Source: Salegentibacter tibetensis (GTDB lineage: Bacteria > Bacteroidota > Bacteroidia > Flavobacteriales > Flavobacteriaceae). From it: DNA of 64,000 bases. Made by a program: the position numbers and the translations under genes. The notes below the pieces were generated by a model, which saw only the letters and a list, made by a program, of their open reading frames with translations, ran no database searches and was not told the origin of the DNA. Shown piece after piece: positions 28,005-35,396 of the stretch (positions are counted from its first letter, which is position 1; each line of letters opens with the position of its first letter). The stretch spans positions 1 through 64,000 of the forward strand of contig NZ_JAIQZA010000005.1 in assembly GCF_020164485.1 (NCBI RefSeq), in the 5' to 3' direction.

Positions 28005-29255
28005 ATGATTTTACACAAATTCAAACCACTCGCGGTAATTGCAATAGCTGCCGCCTTTTTTGCTTCCTGTTCACAAGATGAAGTGCGGGAACAGCCAATG
28101 AATGAAGAATTGGTAGCTCCTTCTTCAGCAGATATTATTGAAGGGCAATATATTGTTGTTTTCAATAAAGATATTACCGGCAATGCTTCTTCCAAATACC
28201 CGGAGAGTTATACAAAAGCTCAGGAAGCTGTAGCAAATACTACGAAAAAAGTTCTTTCTGATGCGAAAATAGCAGACGCCGAGTTATTAGCTGTATACAG
28301 TAAAACAATTAACGGTGCAGCTTTAAAACTTACCCTTGAGCAGGTGGAAACCTTAAGAGGTAAAAAAGAAATTGCTTTTATTGAAGAAGACAGAATCGTA
28401 CAATTTGCTCCTCCTTGTGGAACGCCAAATGGCGGGCCGTGTGATGGAGATCCTGGAGATGGAGATTCTGGCGGGGGAGATTCAGCTCAGGATATTCCAT
28501 ACGGAATTACTCGAGTTAACGGAGTCTCTTCTTATACAGGATCTAATGTTGCGTGGGTTATTGATAGTGGAATTGACACAGATCACCCAGATCTTAATGT
28601 AGACGCATCCAGAGGATTTAACGCTTTTACTTCAGGTAAAGATGGGAAATCTACTGACGATGGAAACGGTCACGGGACACACGTAGCCGGAACTATCGCA
28701 GCTTTAAATAACGATTTTGGAGTTGTTGGTGTAGCTCCGGGAGCTTCTGTTATACCTGTAAAAGTTTTGGATAGCCGTGGTAGCGGATCTTATTCTGGCG
28801 TTATAGCTGGTGTAGATCACGTAGCAGCTTACGGAAGTGCCGGGGACGTTGCCAATATGAGTCTTGGAGGACCAACTTCAGATGCTCTTGATAGTGCAGT
28901 GCTTTCGGCTTCAGAAAACGGAATTATTTTCGCTCTTGCAGCAGGTAATGATGGTGCTGACGCTAATAACAGCTCTCCCGCTCGAGTGAATGGGCAATAT
29001 ATTGTAACGATTTCTGCTATGGATTCTAACGATAACTGGGCATCTTTTTCTAACTATGGAAATCCTCCAGTAGATTATGTAGCTCCTGGAGTAGCTGTTA
29101 ATTCTACCTGGAAAGACGGTGGTTATAATTCAATAAGTGGTACTTCAATGGCCGCTCCACACGCAGCCGGTGTATTGTTGTTGGGTGTTGCATCTACAGA
29201 TGGTACTGTAAATGGTGATCCAGATGGAAATCCAGATCCGATTATTGTTCACTAA
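28005..29255 (+). CDS. Subtilisin-family (S8) serine protease, lipoprotein
   Basis: A secreted subtilase of 416 residues. Lipobox FFASC (Cys22), an I9 inhibitor propeptide (IEGQYIVVFNKDI to about residue 134), a Gly/Asp-rich linker (140-160), then the catalytic domain: Asp187 in VIDSGID, His223 in NGHGTHVAGT, Asn315 of the oxyanion hole in AAGND and Ser381 in SGTSMAAPHAAG. The polypeptide ends soon after the catalytic Ser, without a C-terminal sorting domain, so it depends on its lipid anchor. It would degrade extracellular protein, along with the astacin and the carboxypeptidase. Own promoter and terminator. Confidence 0.95.
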   Translation: MILHKFKPLAVIAIAAAFFASCSQDEVREQPMNEELVAPSSADIIEGQYIVVFNKDITGNASSKYPESYTKAQEAVANTTKKVLSDAKIADAELLAVYSKTINGAALKLTLEQVETLRGKKEIAFIEEDRIVQFAPPCGTPNGGPCDGDPGDGDSGGGDSAQDIPYGITRVNGVSSYTGSNVAWVIDSGIDTDHPDLNVDASRGFNAFTSGKDGKSTDDGNGHGTHVAGTIAALNNDFGVVGVAPGASVIPVKVLDSRGSGSYSGVIAGVDHVAAYGSAGDVANMSLGGPTSDALDSAVLSASENGIIFALAAGNDGADANNSSPARVNGQYIVTISAMDSNDNWASFSNYGNPPVDYVAPGVAVNSTWKDGGYNSISGTSMAAPHAAGVLLLGVASTDGTVNGDPDGNPDPIIVH

Positions 29256-29561: not shown

Positions 29562-30233
29562 TTATTCTTCACATTGTCTAATTAGGCTTACTAATGCCGC
29601 CCCGTTGTTAACTGGAGTTAATATATTGTTCACGCTTATTTCTAATGGGAACTCAAAACTTACTACAGAACTGGCCGTTAAGTTGTCGAAATAGACAAAT
29701 AAGTCTTCCTGAGAATTGAGTACTGCTGAATTTGCTTGCTGAGAAACACTATTGTAGGAATTAATGCGTAATGGGAATGAAAAATTCACACAAGTAATTG
29801 GTGTACCGCGCTCATTTGTCATATTGCGGCAGGCTTGCTGCAAACCTGCAAACTGCTGTCTGTTCCTCACTGTAATTCTTTGATGTCCCGGGTTAATAAC
29901 TGTAACTGGAAAATCCAGTACAATATCCTGAGGGTTAGCATTAGCAGGTAAACTTTCTAAAAAGTTCTGGCGTTCAGTCTCAGAAGAAATATTTATTTCG
30001 CTTCCCTGGAAAGTTATAGTATAAGGAAAAAGCAGGGAAAAACAGGGATTGTTATCTATTTGATCATCTGCAGAACCGTCGTACATAGCTGCCCGATAAA
30101 TAAGGTTATAAGCCTCCATATCAATACTTATAGAGTTTTGATCCTGCTCTGTAATTACTTCATACTCTTCTTTTTGACAAGCTGCCAAAAAAAGAAGGAG
30201 AAATAATAGAATGAAAGGTAGTCTCTTTTTCAT
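29562..30233 (-). CDS. Lipoprotein with two similar beta domains
   Basis: A 223-residue lipoprotein (Cys19 in FLAACQ) of unknown function. Two stretches look like copies of one domain: CFSLLFPYTITF to about residue 133, and CVNFSFPLRIN to the end, each opening with Cys-x-x-x-FP and closing near a second Cys, so disulfides are possible. It lies in a group with a DUF4382 lipoprotein and an ECF sigma unit and carries the same promoter motif, which suggests co-expression at the cell surface. Confidence 0.7.
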   Translation of the reverse strand: MKKRLPFILLFLLLFLAACQKEEYEVITEQDQNSISIDMEAYNLIYRAAMYDGSADDQIDNNPCFSLLFPYTITFQGSEINISSETERQNFLESLPANANPQDIVLDFPVTVINPGHQRITVRNRQQFAGLQQACRNMTNERGTPITCVNFSFPLRINSYNSVSQQANSAVLNSQEDLFVYFDNLTASSVVSFEFPLEISVNNILTPVNNGAALVSLIRQCEE

Positions 30234-30262: not shown

Positions 30263-30298
30263 TATAAATAAGACAATTAAGATTAAATTTACCCTACC
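30263..30298 (-). promoter_or_regulatory. Bipartite ECF-type promoter before the two-domain lipoprotein gene
   Basis: Read on the minus strand: GGTAGGGTAAA (30288-30298), 11 bases, TTGTCTTATTTATA (30263-30276), then 29 bases to the ATG. The same two boxes with the same spacing precede the DUF4382 and fecR genes. Confidence 0.65.
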
Positions 30299-30395
30299 TA
30301 TAAGGGTGATAATATTAAAACTAATTTTAAAAAAAACACAAATTATCTCGTTTAATTTCCTGGAATGCTCTTAACCCGCCAATATTAGTAAAAAT

Positions 30396-30430
30396 AAAAA
30401 AGGCTGCCCTTTTTCAAGACAGCCTTTCCC
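30396..30430 (-). terminator. Intrinsic terminator after the DUF4382 gene
   Basis: Read on the minus strand: AAAGGCTG, a loop of about 13 bases, CAGCCTTT followed by a T-rich tract, 22 bases after the stop codon. Confidence 0.75.
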
Positions 30431-30451
30431 GGGAGGATCAATTTAACATCA

Positions 30452-31231
30452 TTATTCAAAATTAACCGTCCCCATTTGGGTGGTTTCTCCAATTTCTACA
30501 ACGATATCTGTTTCAGTTATAACCTCTCCTTCAGCAGATTCGATAAGTACGGTATAGGTTCCTTCGGGTACACCGAACAGCAAAAACTCACCGGTTTCGG
30601 TATTGGTATTGGCGGTAACCTGAGTCTCACCGTCTGTGGCGGTAACACTTGCTGCCATAGCAGGAGATACTACTCCGGCAATAGCTCCACTTTCAGCCTC
30701 AGTGGTCACCCTTATTACAGGCTTAAGAATATATCCCTGATCGGCTCCAAGTTTAACCACAGATTCATCTACGTTAAAATCAAGAATAAAATCATAGGCA
30801 ACTCCGGGTTGTAAATCATAATTCACATTAAGCTTAAGACCCGATTGCTGAGCACTTGGGGTTTTTAGATCTACGGGACTTGTCTCTCCGTTAAGTACAG
30901 CTTCATTACCATCTTCACCAAGGATCAAACGAATTTGGCTCAATCTTCCTGCAGGAATATCTTCATCTAATAAGGATGCAAAGTTTCCTGCGGTTAGTTC
31001 CAGAAGATCATATTGTCCCGGTTGATTAACGTTAAACTCCATAGGAGAACCGTCTACAATAACTTCAATAGCCTGAACATTCACAAAAACATTCAGATAA
31101 TCTCCGGGGGCATCTACCATTTTAACGCTGATGTTTGCCGTTTCTCCCGTGTTGTTGTCGTCGCTGCTGCAGGAATATAAAGTAGTTGCTGCAACTGTCA
31201 GGAATAAAATAGATTTTAAAACATTTTTCAT
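30452..31231 (-). CDS. DUF4382 lipoprotein with a carboxypeptidase-regulatory-like domain
   Basis: A 259-residue lipoprotein (Cys21 in TTLYSCSS). Residues about 33-175 match DUF4382 (NISVKMVDAPGDYLNVFVNVQAIEV), a domain found in secreted proteins of Bacteroidota and other phyla with no proven function. The last 75 residues form a small beta-sandwich (GAIAGVVSPAMAASVTATDGETQVTANTNTETGEFLLFGVPEGTYTVLIESAEG) like those in carboxypeptidase-regulatory or CNA-B domains. It lies divergent from the ECF sigma gene and has the shared bipartite promoter, so it is probably part of that regulon. Confidence 0.85.
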   Translation of the reverse strand: MKNVLKSILFLTVAATTLYSCSSDDNNTGETANISVKMVDAPGDYLNVFVNVQAIEVIVDGSPMEFNVNQPGQYDLLELTAGNFASLLDEDIPAGRLSQIRLILGEDGNEAVLNGETSPVDLKTPSAQQSGLKLNVNYDLQPGVAYDFILDFNVDESVVKLGADQGYILKPVIRVTTEAESGAIAGVVSPAMAASVTATDGETQVTANTNTETGEFLLFGVPEGTYTVLIESAEGEVITETDIVVEIGETTQMGTVNFE

Positions 31232-31287
31232 AATTAAGATTGGATTTTAGGTTTCTAATTTTGGGTTGTAAAGTTTTTACCGCCTTC

Positions 31288-31323
31288 TACACATAAGACA
31301 ACCTAAATATGTTTTACCCTACC
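31288..31323 (-). promoter_or_regulatory. Bipartite ECF-type promoter before the DUF4382 gene
   Basis: Read on the minus strand: GGTAGGGTAAA (31313-31323), 11 bases, TTGTCTTATGTGTA (31288-31301). The ATG lies 57 bases downstream. On the opposite strand the divergent sigma gene has a housekeeping-type TACATTTG box near 31344-31351. Confidence 0.65.
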
Positions 31324-31379
31324 CCACAGTAATTTTTTTTAAATACATTTGGTAGTAATAAGGAACTTATATCCCCAAT

Positions 31380-31889
31380 ATGTCAAACCAGGACCTTTGT
31401 AAGGAAAATATTTTTCTGGCTTTTTACAGGAAGCACTCCAGCGATCTCCATAATTTCATGTACTACAAGTGCGGAAATAAAGACACGGCATCAGATCTAA
31501 CTCAGGAGGCTTTTATAAAGATATTTGAGAATTGCAGTAAAATAAATTTCCTTAAAGCAAAATCCTATTTGTTTACAGTAGCTAATAATTTATTCCTGAA
31601 TACTGCTAAACACGAAAAGGTAAAACTCCATTATAGTAAGAATAATCCTGTGGAAGACAGGGATCATGAACATCCCGATTTTCTTTTGCAGGAAAAGGAA
31701 TTCATGCAGAAACTGGAAAAAGCTATAGGTGATCTTACTGAAGGCCAGAGGGAAGTTTTTCTCCTTAACCGCATCGATGGAAAAAAATACAGGGAAATAG
31801 CCGAAATGCTAAACATATCTGAAAAAGCTGTTGAAAAAAGAATGATGGGGGCCTTAAAATCCTTGCGGAAGAAGATTGGGAATATTTAA
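31380..31889 (+). CDS. ECF-type RNA polymerase sigma factor
   Basis: A sigma-70 family factor of the extracytoplasmic-function class, 169 residues. Region 2 is visible in DLHNFMYYKCGNKDTASDLTQEAFIKIFEN, and region 4 in LTEGQREVFLLNRIDGKKYREIAEMLNISEKAVEKRMMGALKSLRKKI with its helix-turn-helix. It is followed by a FecR anti-sigma gene and a TonB receptor with an STN signalling domain, the standard set for cell-surface signalling: substrate binding outside releases the sigma factor. Its likely targets are the three promoters with the bipartite motif. The gene itself seems to have a housekeeping promoter. Confidence 0.95.
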   Translation: MSNQDLCKENIFLAFYRKHSSDLHNFMYYKCGNKDTASDLTQEAFIKIFENCSKINFLKAKSYLFTVANNLFLNTAKHEKVKLHYSKNNPVEDRDHEHPDFLLQEKEFMQKLEKAIGDLTEGQREVFLLNRIDGKKYREIAEMLNISEKAVEKRMMGALKSLRKKIGNI

Positions 31890-31899
31890 TACACTTAAG

Positions 31900-31935
31900 G
31901 GTAGGGTAAAGCGGATCTTAATTGTTCTATTTATA
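31900..31935 (+). promoter_or_regulatory. Bipartite ECF-type promoter directly before fecR
   Basis: GGTAGGGTAAA (31900-31910), 11 bases, TTGTTCTATTTATA (31922-31935). The fecR ATG is only 7 bases further on, so a transcript from here would be almost leaderless. Confidence 0.6.
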
Positions 31936-31942
31936 GAATCAC

Positions 31943-32851
31943 ATGGAAAATAAAAAGCTGATAAAGAAATGGTTAAACGGGGAACTCTCCCCGGTAGAAC
32001 GGGCTGTGTTTGAAAAATCACCCGAATACCACGATTATAAAGAAATTGTGCAGAAAGCTGCACTTTTCCAGAAGCCAGATTTTAATGAAGAAAAAAATCT
32101 GCATCTTCTTAAGGAGAGGATGAAAAGGAGTCAGTCGCGAAAAGGTAGATTGTTACGTCTTCCTGCTGTTCTTAAAATAGCTGCTATCCTGGTGCTGCTT
32201 TTGGCCTCTGGCTTTTTTATATATTTTAATGCTTCAGAGTCCGTAATAACAGAAACAGGACAGTTTTCCTTAGTCGAATTACCCGATAATTCTAAGGTTC
32301 GTTTAAGTGCTGAAAGCAAGGTGAAATATTATCCGCGTAGATGGGAGGGGAAGCGAATAGTACATCTGGACGGAGAAGCTTTTTTTGAGGTTGAAAAAGG
32401 CAGTGAATTTAAAGTTAAGACAGACGAGGGGATCGTAGAGGTTTTGGGAACCAGTTTCAATGTAATAAACCGTGCAGGATTTTTTGAAGTCATATGTTAT
32501 GAAGGATCGGTAAAAGTAACTCATTCTGGCAGAGAAAGCGTGTTACTGAAAAACGAATTATACCAGGTAATAGAAGGACAATTACAACAAGGTGCCGCGG
32601 TAGTGGAAGAAACTCCGGGTTGGATAAAAAATGAAAGCAGCTTTCGTGCGGTTCCGTTTAAGTTCGTACTTTCGGAAATGGAAAGACAGTTTGGTTTAAA
32701 GATAACAGCAGATAATGTGGATGGGGAACAGCTTTTTAGTGGAAGTTTTAGTCACTCAGATCTGGAAACTGCATTGAGGTCTATCACTGTCCCCCTTGGA
32801 TTAAATTATAAGATTGAATCTGGCAATAAAGTTGAATTATATGAGGAATAG
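31943..32851 (+). CDS. FecR-family anti-sigma factor
   Basis: The membrane regulator that holds the ECF sigma factor until a signal arrives from the TonB receptor. It has a cytoplasmic N-terminal domain (KKLIKKWLNGELSPVERAVFE), one membrane helix (about residues 78-96) and a periplasmic FecR domain (SLVELPDNSKVRLSAESKVKYYPRRWEGKRIVHLDGEAFFEVEKG; VEVLGTSFNV). The C-terminal domain (WIKNESSFRAVPFKFVLSEMERQFGLKI) resembles the STN-like fold that contacts the receptor. 302 residues, normal length. It overlaps the receptor start by 11 bases. Confidence 0.95.
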   Translation: MENKKLIKKWLNGELSPVERAVFEKSPEYHDYKEIVQKAALFQKPDFNEEKNLHLLKERMKRSQSRKGRLLRLPAVLKIAAILVLLLASGFFIYFNASESVITETGQFSLVELPDNSKVRLSAESKVKYYPRRWEGKRIVHLDGEAFFEVEKGSEFKVKTDEGIVEVLGTSFNVINRAGFFEVICYEGSVKVTHSGRESVLLKNELYQVIEGQLQQGAAVVEETPGWIKNESSFRAVPFKFVLSEMERQFGLKITADNVDGEQLFSGSFSHSDLETALRSITVPLGLNYKIESGNKVELYEE

Positions 32852-35396
32852 GCGTTCAAGCCGGTTAAATAAAATTATTCCTTCTATTATTTTCCTGCTG
32901 TTCTTCACCTTCTCTTTTGGGCAGGACAGCCCGCAAAACAAACAATTGCCTTTAAAGGAAATATTAGCAGGAATTGAACAAAGGTTTGAGGTACGTTTCT
33001 CCTACCTGGATAGGGATTTAGATTCTATTCAACTGCTTCCACCTCCTGCATCCCTGGGCCTGGAAAGATCGCTTGATGATCTTCGGTCCAAAACAAACTT
33101 ACATTTTGAAAGAATAAGTAGTAGGTATATAGCTGTAAAAAAGAAAGATTTGCAGGCGGTATGCTTATTATTGTTAGATCGTAGCACGGAACAACCTCTT
33201 CCAAGTGCCACAGTATGGATAGGGGATACTGCAACTGCGGTTACAGATTCTTCCGGTAAATTTCAATTGAAAGAGTTTCTTTCAGACACATCGATAAGGA
33301 TTACTCATCTCGGGTATGCTCCTATTATTTTAAGGGATTTTTCTTTCCCTGAAAGGGATTGCAAAACCATTTATATGGATGCCATAGCCGAAGATTTGCA
33401 GGAAATGCTCGTGGTAAATTATCTTACCTCGGGAATCAGCAAAGATGAAGATGGTTCTATAAAAATTGATACCGAAAGGTTTGGAGTACTTCCGGGATTA
33501 ATGGAGCCCGATGTACTACAAACTCTGGAAGCTTTACCCGGAGTGGAAAGTGTAAATGAAACGATCTCCAATATTAATATTCGCGGGGGTACAAGTGATC
33601 AAAACCTCGTTTTATTTGATGGGATTAAAATGTATCTCACCGGGCATTTCTTCGGATTAATTTCAGCCTTTAATTCTAACCTTACCAAGAAAGCGACTTT
33701 AATAAAAAATGGGACTGAGTCTTCTTTAAACGAAGGTGTATCAGGAACCTTAGACATTCGTTCCCAGAATGAGCTCACTGGAAAATTTTCAGCAGGAGCA
33801 GGGGTTAGCCTGGTGAGTGGCGATGCATATTTTAGAGTGCCTATTACAGAAAAACTGGAGGTTCATTTTTCAGGAAGACGGTCGCTTAACGACTTTTTTA
33901 ATACGCCTACCTATAACAGTTATTTTGACCGCACCTTTCAGGATACCGAAATTCAACTCCCCGGAAGGGAGGATGAGGTTAATGATAGAACCGCAGATTT
34001 TAATTATTATGATTTCAGCTTTAAAGCCCTTTACGACTTAAGCGACCGACACAAATTGCGATTAAGTACACTTTATATAGATAATAATCTTAATTATCAG
34101 GAGTTATCATCTAATGATCTTGCTGAAGAGAAAAAGAAAAGCAGTCTTGCCCAGCGAAACTTAGCGACCGGCGGCTCCTGGAGTGCTCACTGGAGTAATA
34201 ACTTTCATACCGAAACCCTTGCTTATCTCACCCGGTATGAATTGGACGCGGCAAATCTTAATATAGATGCGGCCCAGCAACTTTTACAGCGTAATGAAGT
34301 GCTGGAAACCGGCTTTAAAATTAACGCCATAAATAAGTTGAATCAACAGCTTAAATTGACCAATGGTTATCACTTTTACGAAGTAGGTGTTTTAAATGCC
34401 GAAAATTTGAATAATCCTTTTTTTAGCAGCAGAATTAAGAATGTTATAAGGAGCCATTCGGCCTTTTCTGAACTAAGTTATGAAGGGGGCAGGATCTTTT
34501 TAATGACAGGATTGCGTTATAATTATTTCGATAAATTCGAGAAATTTCTCATCGAACCCCGCCTGAGTTTTAATTATAAAATAAAACCGGGGATTAATTA
34601 CAAAGTACAGGGAGAATTTAAGAGCCAGATTACCAGCCAGTCAATCGATCTTCAGGAAGACTTTTTGGGGGTGGAAAACCGACGCTGGATTTTAGCCGAT
34701 AATGAAAATTTCCCTGTAATTCAAAGTAGGCAGGTGTCTACAGGAATAGATTTTCGTGCCGGAGGTTGGTATATAGACCTTGAAGGATATTATAAACAAG
34801 TAGAAGGCATAAGTACCTCAAACCAGGGGTTTCAGGATCAAAACGAGTTTAGAAGAGTAGCGGGAAACTATACTGCAAGAGGGGTTGAGCTTCTCGTGAA
34901 TAAGAAGTACAGGAATTTTCACACCTATTTCACTTATACTTTGGCAGAGAGTGATTATAATTTTGAAGCACTGGAACCACAACAGTTTCCAAACAATTTT
35001 GATATTCCCCATTCGGCTTCCCTTGCAGTAAATTATCACTATGAGGATTTAAAATTTTCCATTGGAGGAAAATGGAGAAGCGGCAGGCCATACACATCCC
35101 CCGTAGAAGAAAACCAAACCCGCAGGGAAGGAAATACTATAGTGGTAAATTACGATGATCCAAACTCTTCACGCTTACCTTATTTTTTCCGGCTGGATGC
35201 CTCTTCCTCGTACACATTTTCCATGTCAGGTGAAGTACAGGCTCATATAAGCCTGGGGTTTTTAAATATCTTAAACCGCGCGAATATTATTAATAGTTAC
35301 TTTCGTGTCGATGAGGAAGATAATTCCCGGGCAGTACGAATTGATAACGCCTCTCTTAGGTTCACGCCAAATGCACTGTTTAGAATAGATTTCTAA
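32841..35396 (+). CDS. TonB-dependent receptor with an N-terminal signalling (STN) domain
   Basis: An outer-membrane transducer that starts the sigma cascade and imports a ligand. It has a signal peptide, an STN domain (LKEILAGIEQRFEVRFSYLDR, about residues 38-110), a carboxypeptidase-regulatory-like domain (LLLDRSTEQPLPSATVWIGD), a plug (LQTLEALPGVESVNETISNINIRGGTSDQNLVLFDGIKMY) and a beta barrel that ends in NALFRIDF. The ATG at 32841, which overlaps the fecR stop, is preferred to one 27 bases upstream because it gives a short basic start before the signal helix. The ligand is unknown: the receptor is not of the SusC type and has no SusD partner. Confidence 0.92.
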   Translation: MRNRRSSRLNKIIPSIIFLLFFTFSFGQDSPQNKQLPLKEILAGIEQRFEVRFSYLDRDLDSIQLLPPPASLGLERSLDDLRSKTNLHFERISSRYIAVKKKDLQAVCLLLLDRSTEQPLPSATVWIGDTATAVTDSSGKFQLKEFLSDTSIRITHLGYAPIILRDFSFPERDCKTIYMDAIAEDLQEMLVVNYLTSGISKDEDGSIKIDTERFGVLPGLMEPDVLQTLEALPGVESVNETISNINIRGGTSDQNLVLFDGIKMYLTGHFFGLISAFNSNLTKKATLIKNGTESSLNEGVSGTLDIRSQNELTGKFSAGAGVSLVSGDAYFRVPITEKLEVHFSGRRSLNDFFNTPTYNSYFDRTFQDTEIQLPGREDEVNDRTADFNYYDFSFKALYDLSDRHKLRLSTLYIDNNLNYQELSSNDLAEEKKKSSLAQRNLATGGSWSAHWSNNFHTETLAYLTRYELDAANLNIDAAQQLLQRNEVLETGFKINAINKLNQQLKLTNGYHFYEVGVLNAENLNNPFFSSRIKNVIRSHSAFSELSYEGGRIFLMTGLRYNYFDKFEKFLIEPRLSFNYKIKPGINYKVQGEFKSQITSQSIDLQEDFLGVENRRWILADNENFPVIQSRQVSTGIDFRAGGWYIDLEGYYKQVEGISTSNQGFQDQNEFRRVAGNYTARGVELLVNKKYRNFHTYFTYTLAESDYNFEALEPQQFPNNFDIPHSASLAVNYHYEDLKFSIGGKWRSGRPYTSPVEENQTRREGNTIVVNYDDPNSSRLPYFFRLDASSSYTFSMSGEVQAHISLGFLNILNRANIINSYFRVDEEDNSRAVRIDNASLRFTPNALFRIDF

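Follow-up and report, generated by a model that had tools for sequence, protein, structure and literature searches.

The bipartite motif that recurs around a single ECF sigma factor gene of Salegentibacter tibetensis raises the question of whether its copies are promoters read by that sigma factor and, if so, which genes form the regulon. The features on which the analysis turns, in the window (the whole stretch of 64,000 nucleotides that was analyzed) and at one unlinked position in the same genome, are as follows.

29562..30233, minus strand: lipo2, lipoprotein of 223 aa with lipobox Cys19 and four predicted beta-beta-beta-alpha units
30263..30298, minus strand: predicted ECF-type promoter of lipo2 (the four-unit, "two-domain" lipoprotein gene), exact motif
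30452..31231, minus strand: DUF4382 lipoprotein of 259 aa (PF14321, 110 bits, cut-off 25)
31288..31323, minus strand: predicted ECF-type promoter of the DUF4382 lipoprotein gene, exact motif
31344..31351, plus strand: TACATTTG, which fits TAnnTTTG (the housekeeping -7 box of Bacteroidota) and lies before the sigma gene
31380..31889, plus strand: ECF sigma factor of 169 aa (PF04542, region 2, and PF08281, region 4, over cut-off)
31900..31935, plus strand: exact motif between sigma and fecR, predicted ECF-type promoter for the operon of fecR and the receptor gene
31943..32851, plus strand: fecR, anti-sigma factor of 302 aa (PF04773, 65.4 bits, and PF16344, 33.4 bits, both over cut-off)
32841..35396, plus strand: TonB-dependent receptor of 851 aa (Plug PF07715, 27.8 bits, cut-off 23.9)
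Contig C109, 54837-54867, minus strand: fourth exact site, 60 nt before a 235-aa lipoprotein gene

The sigma factor scored 117.3 bits against TIGR02985 (Sig70_bacteroi1), below the curated cut-off of 126.4, and it is the one close homologue of its type in the genome at an E value of 1e-30 or better (40 of 40 candidates scored); sigma-region-4 matches number 18 in the genome, 15 of them over cut-off. The FecR family (PF04773) has a single genomic match, the fecR of this cluster, whose product has a hydrophobic stretch near residues 76-95 visible in the sequence. The receptor start overlaps the fecR stop. In the window's receptor, CarbopepD_reg_2 fell just under its cut-off and Pfam found no STN domain; a FecR_C match was present in 3 of 5 receptors searched, the window's receptor not among them. 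A subtilase (S8) with an I9 pro-domain, at window positions 28005-29255, converges on the lipo2 gene and has no motif before it.

The preliminary description of this DNA had reported three full, equally spaced matches on both strands, each oriented toward the gene that follows. This proved exact: all three 36-base sites match GGTAGGGTAAA-N11-TTGTYYTATKTRTA with 0 mismatches, and each points into the gene named for it above, with the end of the second box (TTGTYYTAT) 34 nt from the start codon of lipo2, 61 nt from that of the DUF4382 gene, and 12 nt from that of fecR. A scan of the window that allowed up to 3 mismatches found no further site, and 0 of 100 shuffles of the window contained a match. 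The genome (4.2 Mb, 187 contigs) was then scanned at up to 3 mismatches with GGTAGGGTAAA-N11-TTGTYYTAT, the pattern shortened by its five final letters, and this gave 4 exact matches, 0 with 1 or 2 mismatches, and 2 with 3, while the reversed control pattern gave 5 matches at up to 3 mismatches, a count not split by mismatch number. A looser pattern, again with up to 3 mismatches, matched 63 times versus 84 for its control and was noise apart from the same 4 exact sites. The search for both boxes with 11-base spacing thus yielded few sites, the many unrelated hits that would speak against a regulon were absent in this genome, and the earlier judgment that chance is an improbable source of the motif holds. 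The extent first given to the motif holds in part: the core recurs at the fourth site and in relatives, whereas the last five letters, KTRTA, are common to the three window sites only, are lacking at the C109 site, and fall outside the core found in relatives.

Conservation of the motif was analyzed at the loci of relatives, taken as the best 80 of 577 confirmed loci from the receptor alignment. These loci come mostly from Flavobacteriaceae (Salinimicrobium, Flavobacterium, Algibacter, Kordia, Muricauda, and others), and a few are labeled Cytophagales, Cyclobacteriaceae, or Fulvivirga. The usual layout has lipo2 divergent from the sigma gene, followed by fecR and the receptor; at L110 the sigma gene and lipo2 lie ∼8 kb from fecR, and some other loci end at a contig edge. 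Across the 80 loci the motif occurred with 0, 1, 2, and 3 mismatches 3, 26, 30, and 31 times, compared with 0, 0, 0, and 5 times in the reversed sequence, which makes 90 matches with up to 3 mismatches and 59 with up to 2 (reversed sequence, 5 and 0, respectively). The DUF4382 gene was recognized beside the sigma gene in few relatives only, and its promoter is less widely conserved.

The upstream regions of fecR and lipo2 served to refine a weight matrix, which was applied with a threshold at the 99.9% level of mononucleotide shuffles; the relatives provided 79 fecR, 74 lipo2, and 67 sigma upstream regions (80, 75, and 68 when the window is included). Without the window, 75 of the 79 fecR regions and 69 of the 74 lipo2 regions scored above this level, compared with 1 of the 67 sigma regions, and the window's own fecR and lipo2 regions were above it and its sigma region below. 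Because this matrix scored sequences on which it had been refined, it was retrained on one gene class and tested on the other; scores above the best shuffle were then obtained for 75/79 fecR and 59/74 lipo2 regions and for 0/67 sigma regions both times, a result that answers the circularity in part, since the relatives share ancestry. The gap from TAGGG to TGTYWW was exactly 16 in 133 of 143 pairs, and 75 of the 76 fecR sites scored lay 10-22 nt ahead of the gene's start. All 4 fecR regions under the threshold (L081, L082, L085, and L118) carry the variant GGTAGGAAAA; the 5 lipo2 regions under it were L044, L080, L082, L085, and L118, and at L080 the site sits inside the start of the lipo2 ORF and was missed by the chosen start codon. 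Based on these results, ∼70 relatives keep the motif, with fixed spacing, ahead of fecR and of the gene for the two-domain lipoprotein. In L034, L038, L045, L046, L064, and L112, tandem same-strand promoters stand ∼69 to 168 bases apart before lipo2, and in L034, L038, and L064 the upstream tandem copy has no ORF of at least 45 aa starting within 220 nt.

Co-occurrence of motif and sigma factor was analyzed in 299 genomes of the family, 210 of which are sigma-positive (a match at an E value of 1e-30 or better). The strict motif had 16 sites in 11 of the 299 genomes and its reversed control 0. The relaxed core GTAGGGTAAA-N12-TGTYTTA had 90 sites in 50 genomes and 46 of 236 genera, with 1 control match, which fell in the genome of the window; the window's fecR site, with TTCTA, is not covered by this core. 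All 50 core-bearing genomes were among the 210 sigma-positive ones (hypergeometric p 2.8e-9, ignoring phylogeny). The exact core was absent from 160 of the 210 sigma-positive genomes, and the weight-matrix result indicates that variants are common. Among the sigma matches listed, 61 of the 90 relaxed sites lie within 10 kb of a sigma gene and 27 of the 90 directly in the sigma-fecR gap; the other 29 are more than 10 kb from a listed sigma gene, and at least 4 of them precede fecR (L123, L131, L132, and L139). Six motif genomes carry a sigma gene outside the matches listed by position. In the window's genus, sigma factor and motif each occur in 1 of 15 genomes, and it is the same genome; the 14 congeners lack the motif and have 18-45 loose sigma candidates, none at 1e-30. 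At some positions of the sigma factor (137 and 156, for example) variation follows that in the boxes, a pattern confounded by clades and not relied on here. The few genome hits, the fourth target, the fixed spacing, the conservation, and the co-occurrence with the sigma factor together provide strong support from sequence for the ECF regulon that had been proposed.

Three other explanations of the motif have to be weighed against this evidence. The boxes would be hardly credible as copies of a mobile repeat or a chance artifact: the window sites are close together and the fourth adjoins an integrase, but the spacers between the boxes and the sequences after them differ, and in many genera (46 of 236 for the relaxed core) sites are again found ahead of these genes. 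Repeat or chance was rejected on the shuffles, the rarity in the genome, the recurrence at the loci of relatives, and the weight-matrix scores. It is also quite improbable that a transcription factor, passed on together with the cluster, uses the motif as its operator. The motif is admittedly long and conserved, binding by the sigma factor is here predicted from sequence, and the comparison of neighborhoods covered ORFs of at least 100 aa; a DNA-binding regulator co-inherited with the sigma factor would look similar. Against an operator stand the geometry of a promoter, with its one fixed gap of 16 and its position 10-22 nt before the fecR start, and the finding that the sigma factor, FecR, the receptor, and lipo2 lead the families shared across 81 stretches (the 80 loci and the window), the next family being present in 33.

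Unlikely, too, is a regulon that is shared rather than dedicated, in which several ECF sigma factors of the genome read these promoters. The 15 sigma-region-4 matches above cut-off would provide the candidates, and redundancy of ECF sigma factors is suggested for Flavobacterium psychrophilum in the available part of one study (PMC9723704). However, among the 299 family genomes the exact core was found only in those with this sigma type (50 of 50), and the congeners lack the motif despite their loose sigma candidates. We conclude that the four sites are very probably -35 (GTAGGGTAAA) and -10 (TGTYYTA) elements read by the ECF sigma factor encoded at 31380-31889, as parts of a FecI/FecR/FecA-like unit.

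In the circuit that we propose, FecR would keep the sigma factor at the inner membrane until the TonB-dependent receptor, with a ligand in it, signals to FecR by way of its N-terminal domain. Once released, the sigma factor would transcribe fecR and the receptor gene from the promoter in the sigma-fecR gap, and also the divergent lipo2, the DUF4382 lipoprotein gene, and the unlinked, integrase-side lipoprotein gene on C109. Because this promoter lies between sigma and fecR, both the anti-sigma factor and the receptor are predicted targets. With a transcription start 5-9 nt past the -10 box, the 10-22 nt between site and fecR start would leave a leader of a few nt; in F. psychrophilum, 5.5% of mRNAs are given as leaderless in the part of the study available (PMC9723704).

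Control of the sigma gene appears to differ from that of its targets. Its autoregulation through the same promoter was considered and rejected, with 1 of 68 sigma regions (window included) above the 99.9% level and 0 of 67 with the cross-trained matrix. Of the 68 sigma upstream regions, the window's among them, 42 had TAnnTTTG no more than 120 nt from the start of the gene, versus 9.4% in mononucleotide shuffles; this box, described as the Bacteroidota housekeeping -7 consensus in the accessible text of one study (PMC7366714), also stood before 4 of 80 fecR and 23 of 75 lipo2 genes. Without the motif, and often with a box of the housekeeping type, the sigma gene is probably constitutive; the anti-sigma factor and receptor would probably be under feedback while the sigma gene is housekeeping-driven. 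The boxes before 23 of 75 lipo2 genes suggest that some targets may carry a second promoter.

To see which genes follow the motif, 114 distinct sites from the window and loci L031-L162 were classed by the downstream ORF; as most of these loci were chosen for the sigma cluster or the motif, the class shares are not genome-wide rates. fecR followed 39 sites and the lipo2 cluster 34 (33 directly similar to the window's lipo2, with three genes counted twice because of tandem sites). The rest preceded secreted proteins of ∼150 aa (14), the cluster of the C109 lipoprotein (5, of which 2 are directly similar to that protein, one being itself), an OMP_b-brl_2 barrel (one), the window's DUF4382 gene (1), two pairs and seven singletons of unclear relation, and, at 9 sites, no ORF of at least 45 aa within 220 nt. 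Exact strict-motif sites L031, L035, and L041, from three other genomes, have no convincing gene directly downstream and may be noise or small RNAs; two of these genomes (G184 and G218) have a lower-scoring sigma factor only. In relatives, lipo2 is often followed by a 258-aa lipoprotein with HEIGHLLGL (33 of 81 stretches; no Pfam match), which by eye looks metalloprotease-like, and in 28 of 81 stretches by an OMP_b-brl_2 barrel (one member searched); neither follows lipo2 in the window stretch. At L129 (G105) and L134 (G233), from two genera, the gene after the promoter encodes a small protein that resembles a lipoprotein and carries a haem-type CxxCH motif; it may be one more member of the regulon.

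The model of lipo2 (mean pLDDT 91.7, 51 sequences) has four beta-beta-beta-alpha units, with one alignment-invariant proline in each (70, 109, 154, and 196). Within the window's lipo2, units 3 and 4 alone resemble one another significantly in sequence (z 6.4, compared with 1.3 or less for each of the other five pairs), and the remainder of the repeat is predicted from the modeled structure and the family consensus. No Pfam family scored above cut-off for lipo2, and a PDB fold search with its model gave no match (best E 0.04, TM 0.09); as modeled, lipo2 is possibly a new fold. The DUF4382 model is all beta (pLDDT 73.8, three sequences) and gave weak Foldseek hits to beta-sandwiches, including putative adhesins of Bacteroides, with TM below 0.3. 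The C109 lipoprotein scored 14.2 bits against PF14321, under the cut-off of 25, and 31 columns only of its profile aligned with that of the DUF4382 lipoprotein. NCBIfam and Pfam searches gave no function for the lipoproteins, nor did a PDB sequence search for the DUF4382 lipoprotein.

The lipobox cysteines of the lipoproteins stand in the contexts CQKEEYEV, CSSDDN, and CSSDDS, and 46 of 51 lipo2 homologues have at least two D/E residues at +2 to +7 after this cysteine. Acidic residues just past the lipobox cysteine form the LES surface-export signal in the available part of PMC5080379, and the resemblance of these residues to the signals described there makes it likely that the lipoproteins are surface-exposed. 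The suggestion in the preliminary description that the receptor senses a ligand that the two lipoproteins bind or process is a plausible guess.

The DUF4382 lipoprotein of the cluster is an extra copy, 55-56% identical to two Salinimicrobium proteins; a relative at 47-51% is present in 13 of 14 congeners and in this genome on C99. The sigma factor in 1 of 15 genus genomes, together with an extra DUF4382 protein closest to Salinimicrobium, suggests that the cluster was gained horizontally from a Salinimicrobium-like source, and loss of the cluster in 14 species may be the alternative. The C109 lipoprotein gene lies among repeated elements and adjoins a phage-type integrase that has three Pfam domains over cut-off. 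An 80% identical paralogue on C102 and an 82% identical congener gene (G303) both lack the motif. Salinimicrobium catena has the strict motif before fecR, before lipo2, and before a 51% identical homologue of the C109 lipoprotein, so this target recurs. Between the single genes of the C109 array (L042, 5537-10615) stand a direct repeat of ∼75-78 nt around CGCTACAAAGA, in 3-4 copies, and a terminator-like hairpin; the array adjoins a 401-aa integrase (Phage_integrase, Phage_int_SAM_5) and is cassette-like. ARAGORN found no tRNA in it.

In the SusC/SusD loci of Bacteroides, pairs of ECF sigma and anti-sigma factors exert control of the FecR type over a TonB-dependent receptor that has lipoproteins as partners. 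Like SusC homologues in the PDB, the receptor family described here has a carboxypeptidase-like domain at its N terminus; however, no SusD or polysaccharide enzyme was found among the ten window proteins searched, and the lipoproteins are of other families. The unit resembles Fec of Escherichia coli, as far as the available part of one account describes it (PMC9249621), in its cluster of ECF sigma factor, FecR-family regulator, and TonB-dependent receptor, in a receptor driven by a sigma-dependent promoter (here predicted from sequence), and in a sigma gene that is not autoregulated in E. coli and would not be here. Unlike the present cluster, E. coli has fecI and fecR in a single Fur-controlled unit that is not autoregulated, and fecA has a promoter of its own (PMC9249621, same part). 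The other three of the four targets here are lipoproteins, and a transport operon is absent among the four.

Within the available parts of the studies concerned, comparable promoters in the phylum are few. The SM6 promoters of F. psychrophilum, from the same bacterial family, are likewise of the ECF type, but have a CGT box at -10 and targets that include type IX secretion genes (PMC9723704). The PM2 motif and the promoters of SigW-1 and SigH-1 in Bacteroides thetaiotaomicron are also two-box, non-canonical promoters, proposed for ECF sigma factors, with TGTT near -10 (PMC7366714, PMC12596196), but the motif there is near-palindromic, centered at -30/-10 (PMC7366714), and the targets are other ones. 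An EcfO motif was known for B. fragilis and none for B. thetaiotaomicron in the accessible text of a 2020 study (PMC7366714), and a TGTT-type motif has been proposed for two of the 50 ECF sigma factors of B. thetaiotaomicron (PMC12596196). The earlier remark that little is known of ECF target promoters in Bacteroidota is thus roughly right, in that few are described, although the EcfO, CGT-box, and TGTT-type motifs exist.

A literature search with the box letters gave nothing relevant among the matches listed, judged by title and the start of the abstract, and the mainly open literature searched contained no description of the promoter, layout, lipoproteins, or regulon; DUF4382 is mentioned in one paper. 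The ECF reclassification work may predict the motif; its main paper reportedly predicts group promoters. Within the literature searched, we conclude that the FecI/FecR/FecA-type kind of system was already known and that the promoter, the layout, and the lipoproteins may be new.

Bacteroidota carry many ECF sigma factors, few of whose promoters are described in the literature searched. With a promoter this stringent, the regulon can be read straight from sequence, and lipoproteins that are unlinked in the genome are tied to one receptor. The promoter is also a ready reporter for ligand finding, and its place between sigma and anti-sigma genes is a feedback design unlike the E. coli example. More tentatively, and less probably than not, the cluster could be a portable, self-contained surface-signaling module of one sigma factor and one anti-sigma-receptor operon that scattered surface lipoproteins, the integrase-side C109 gene product among them, join by gaining the stringent promoter, with lipo2 as the dedicated ligand-capturing partner of the receptor, a non-SusD counterpart of SusD. 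The promoter would make switching readable in a class of outer-surface sensors about which little is understood.
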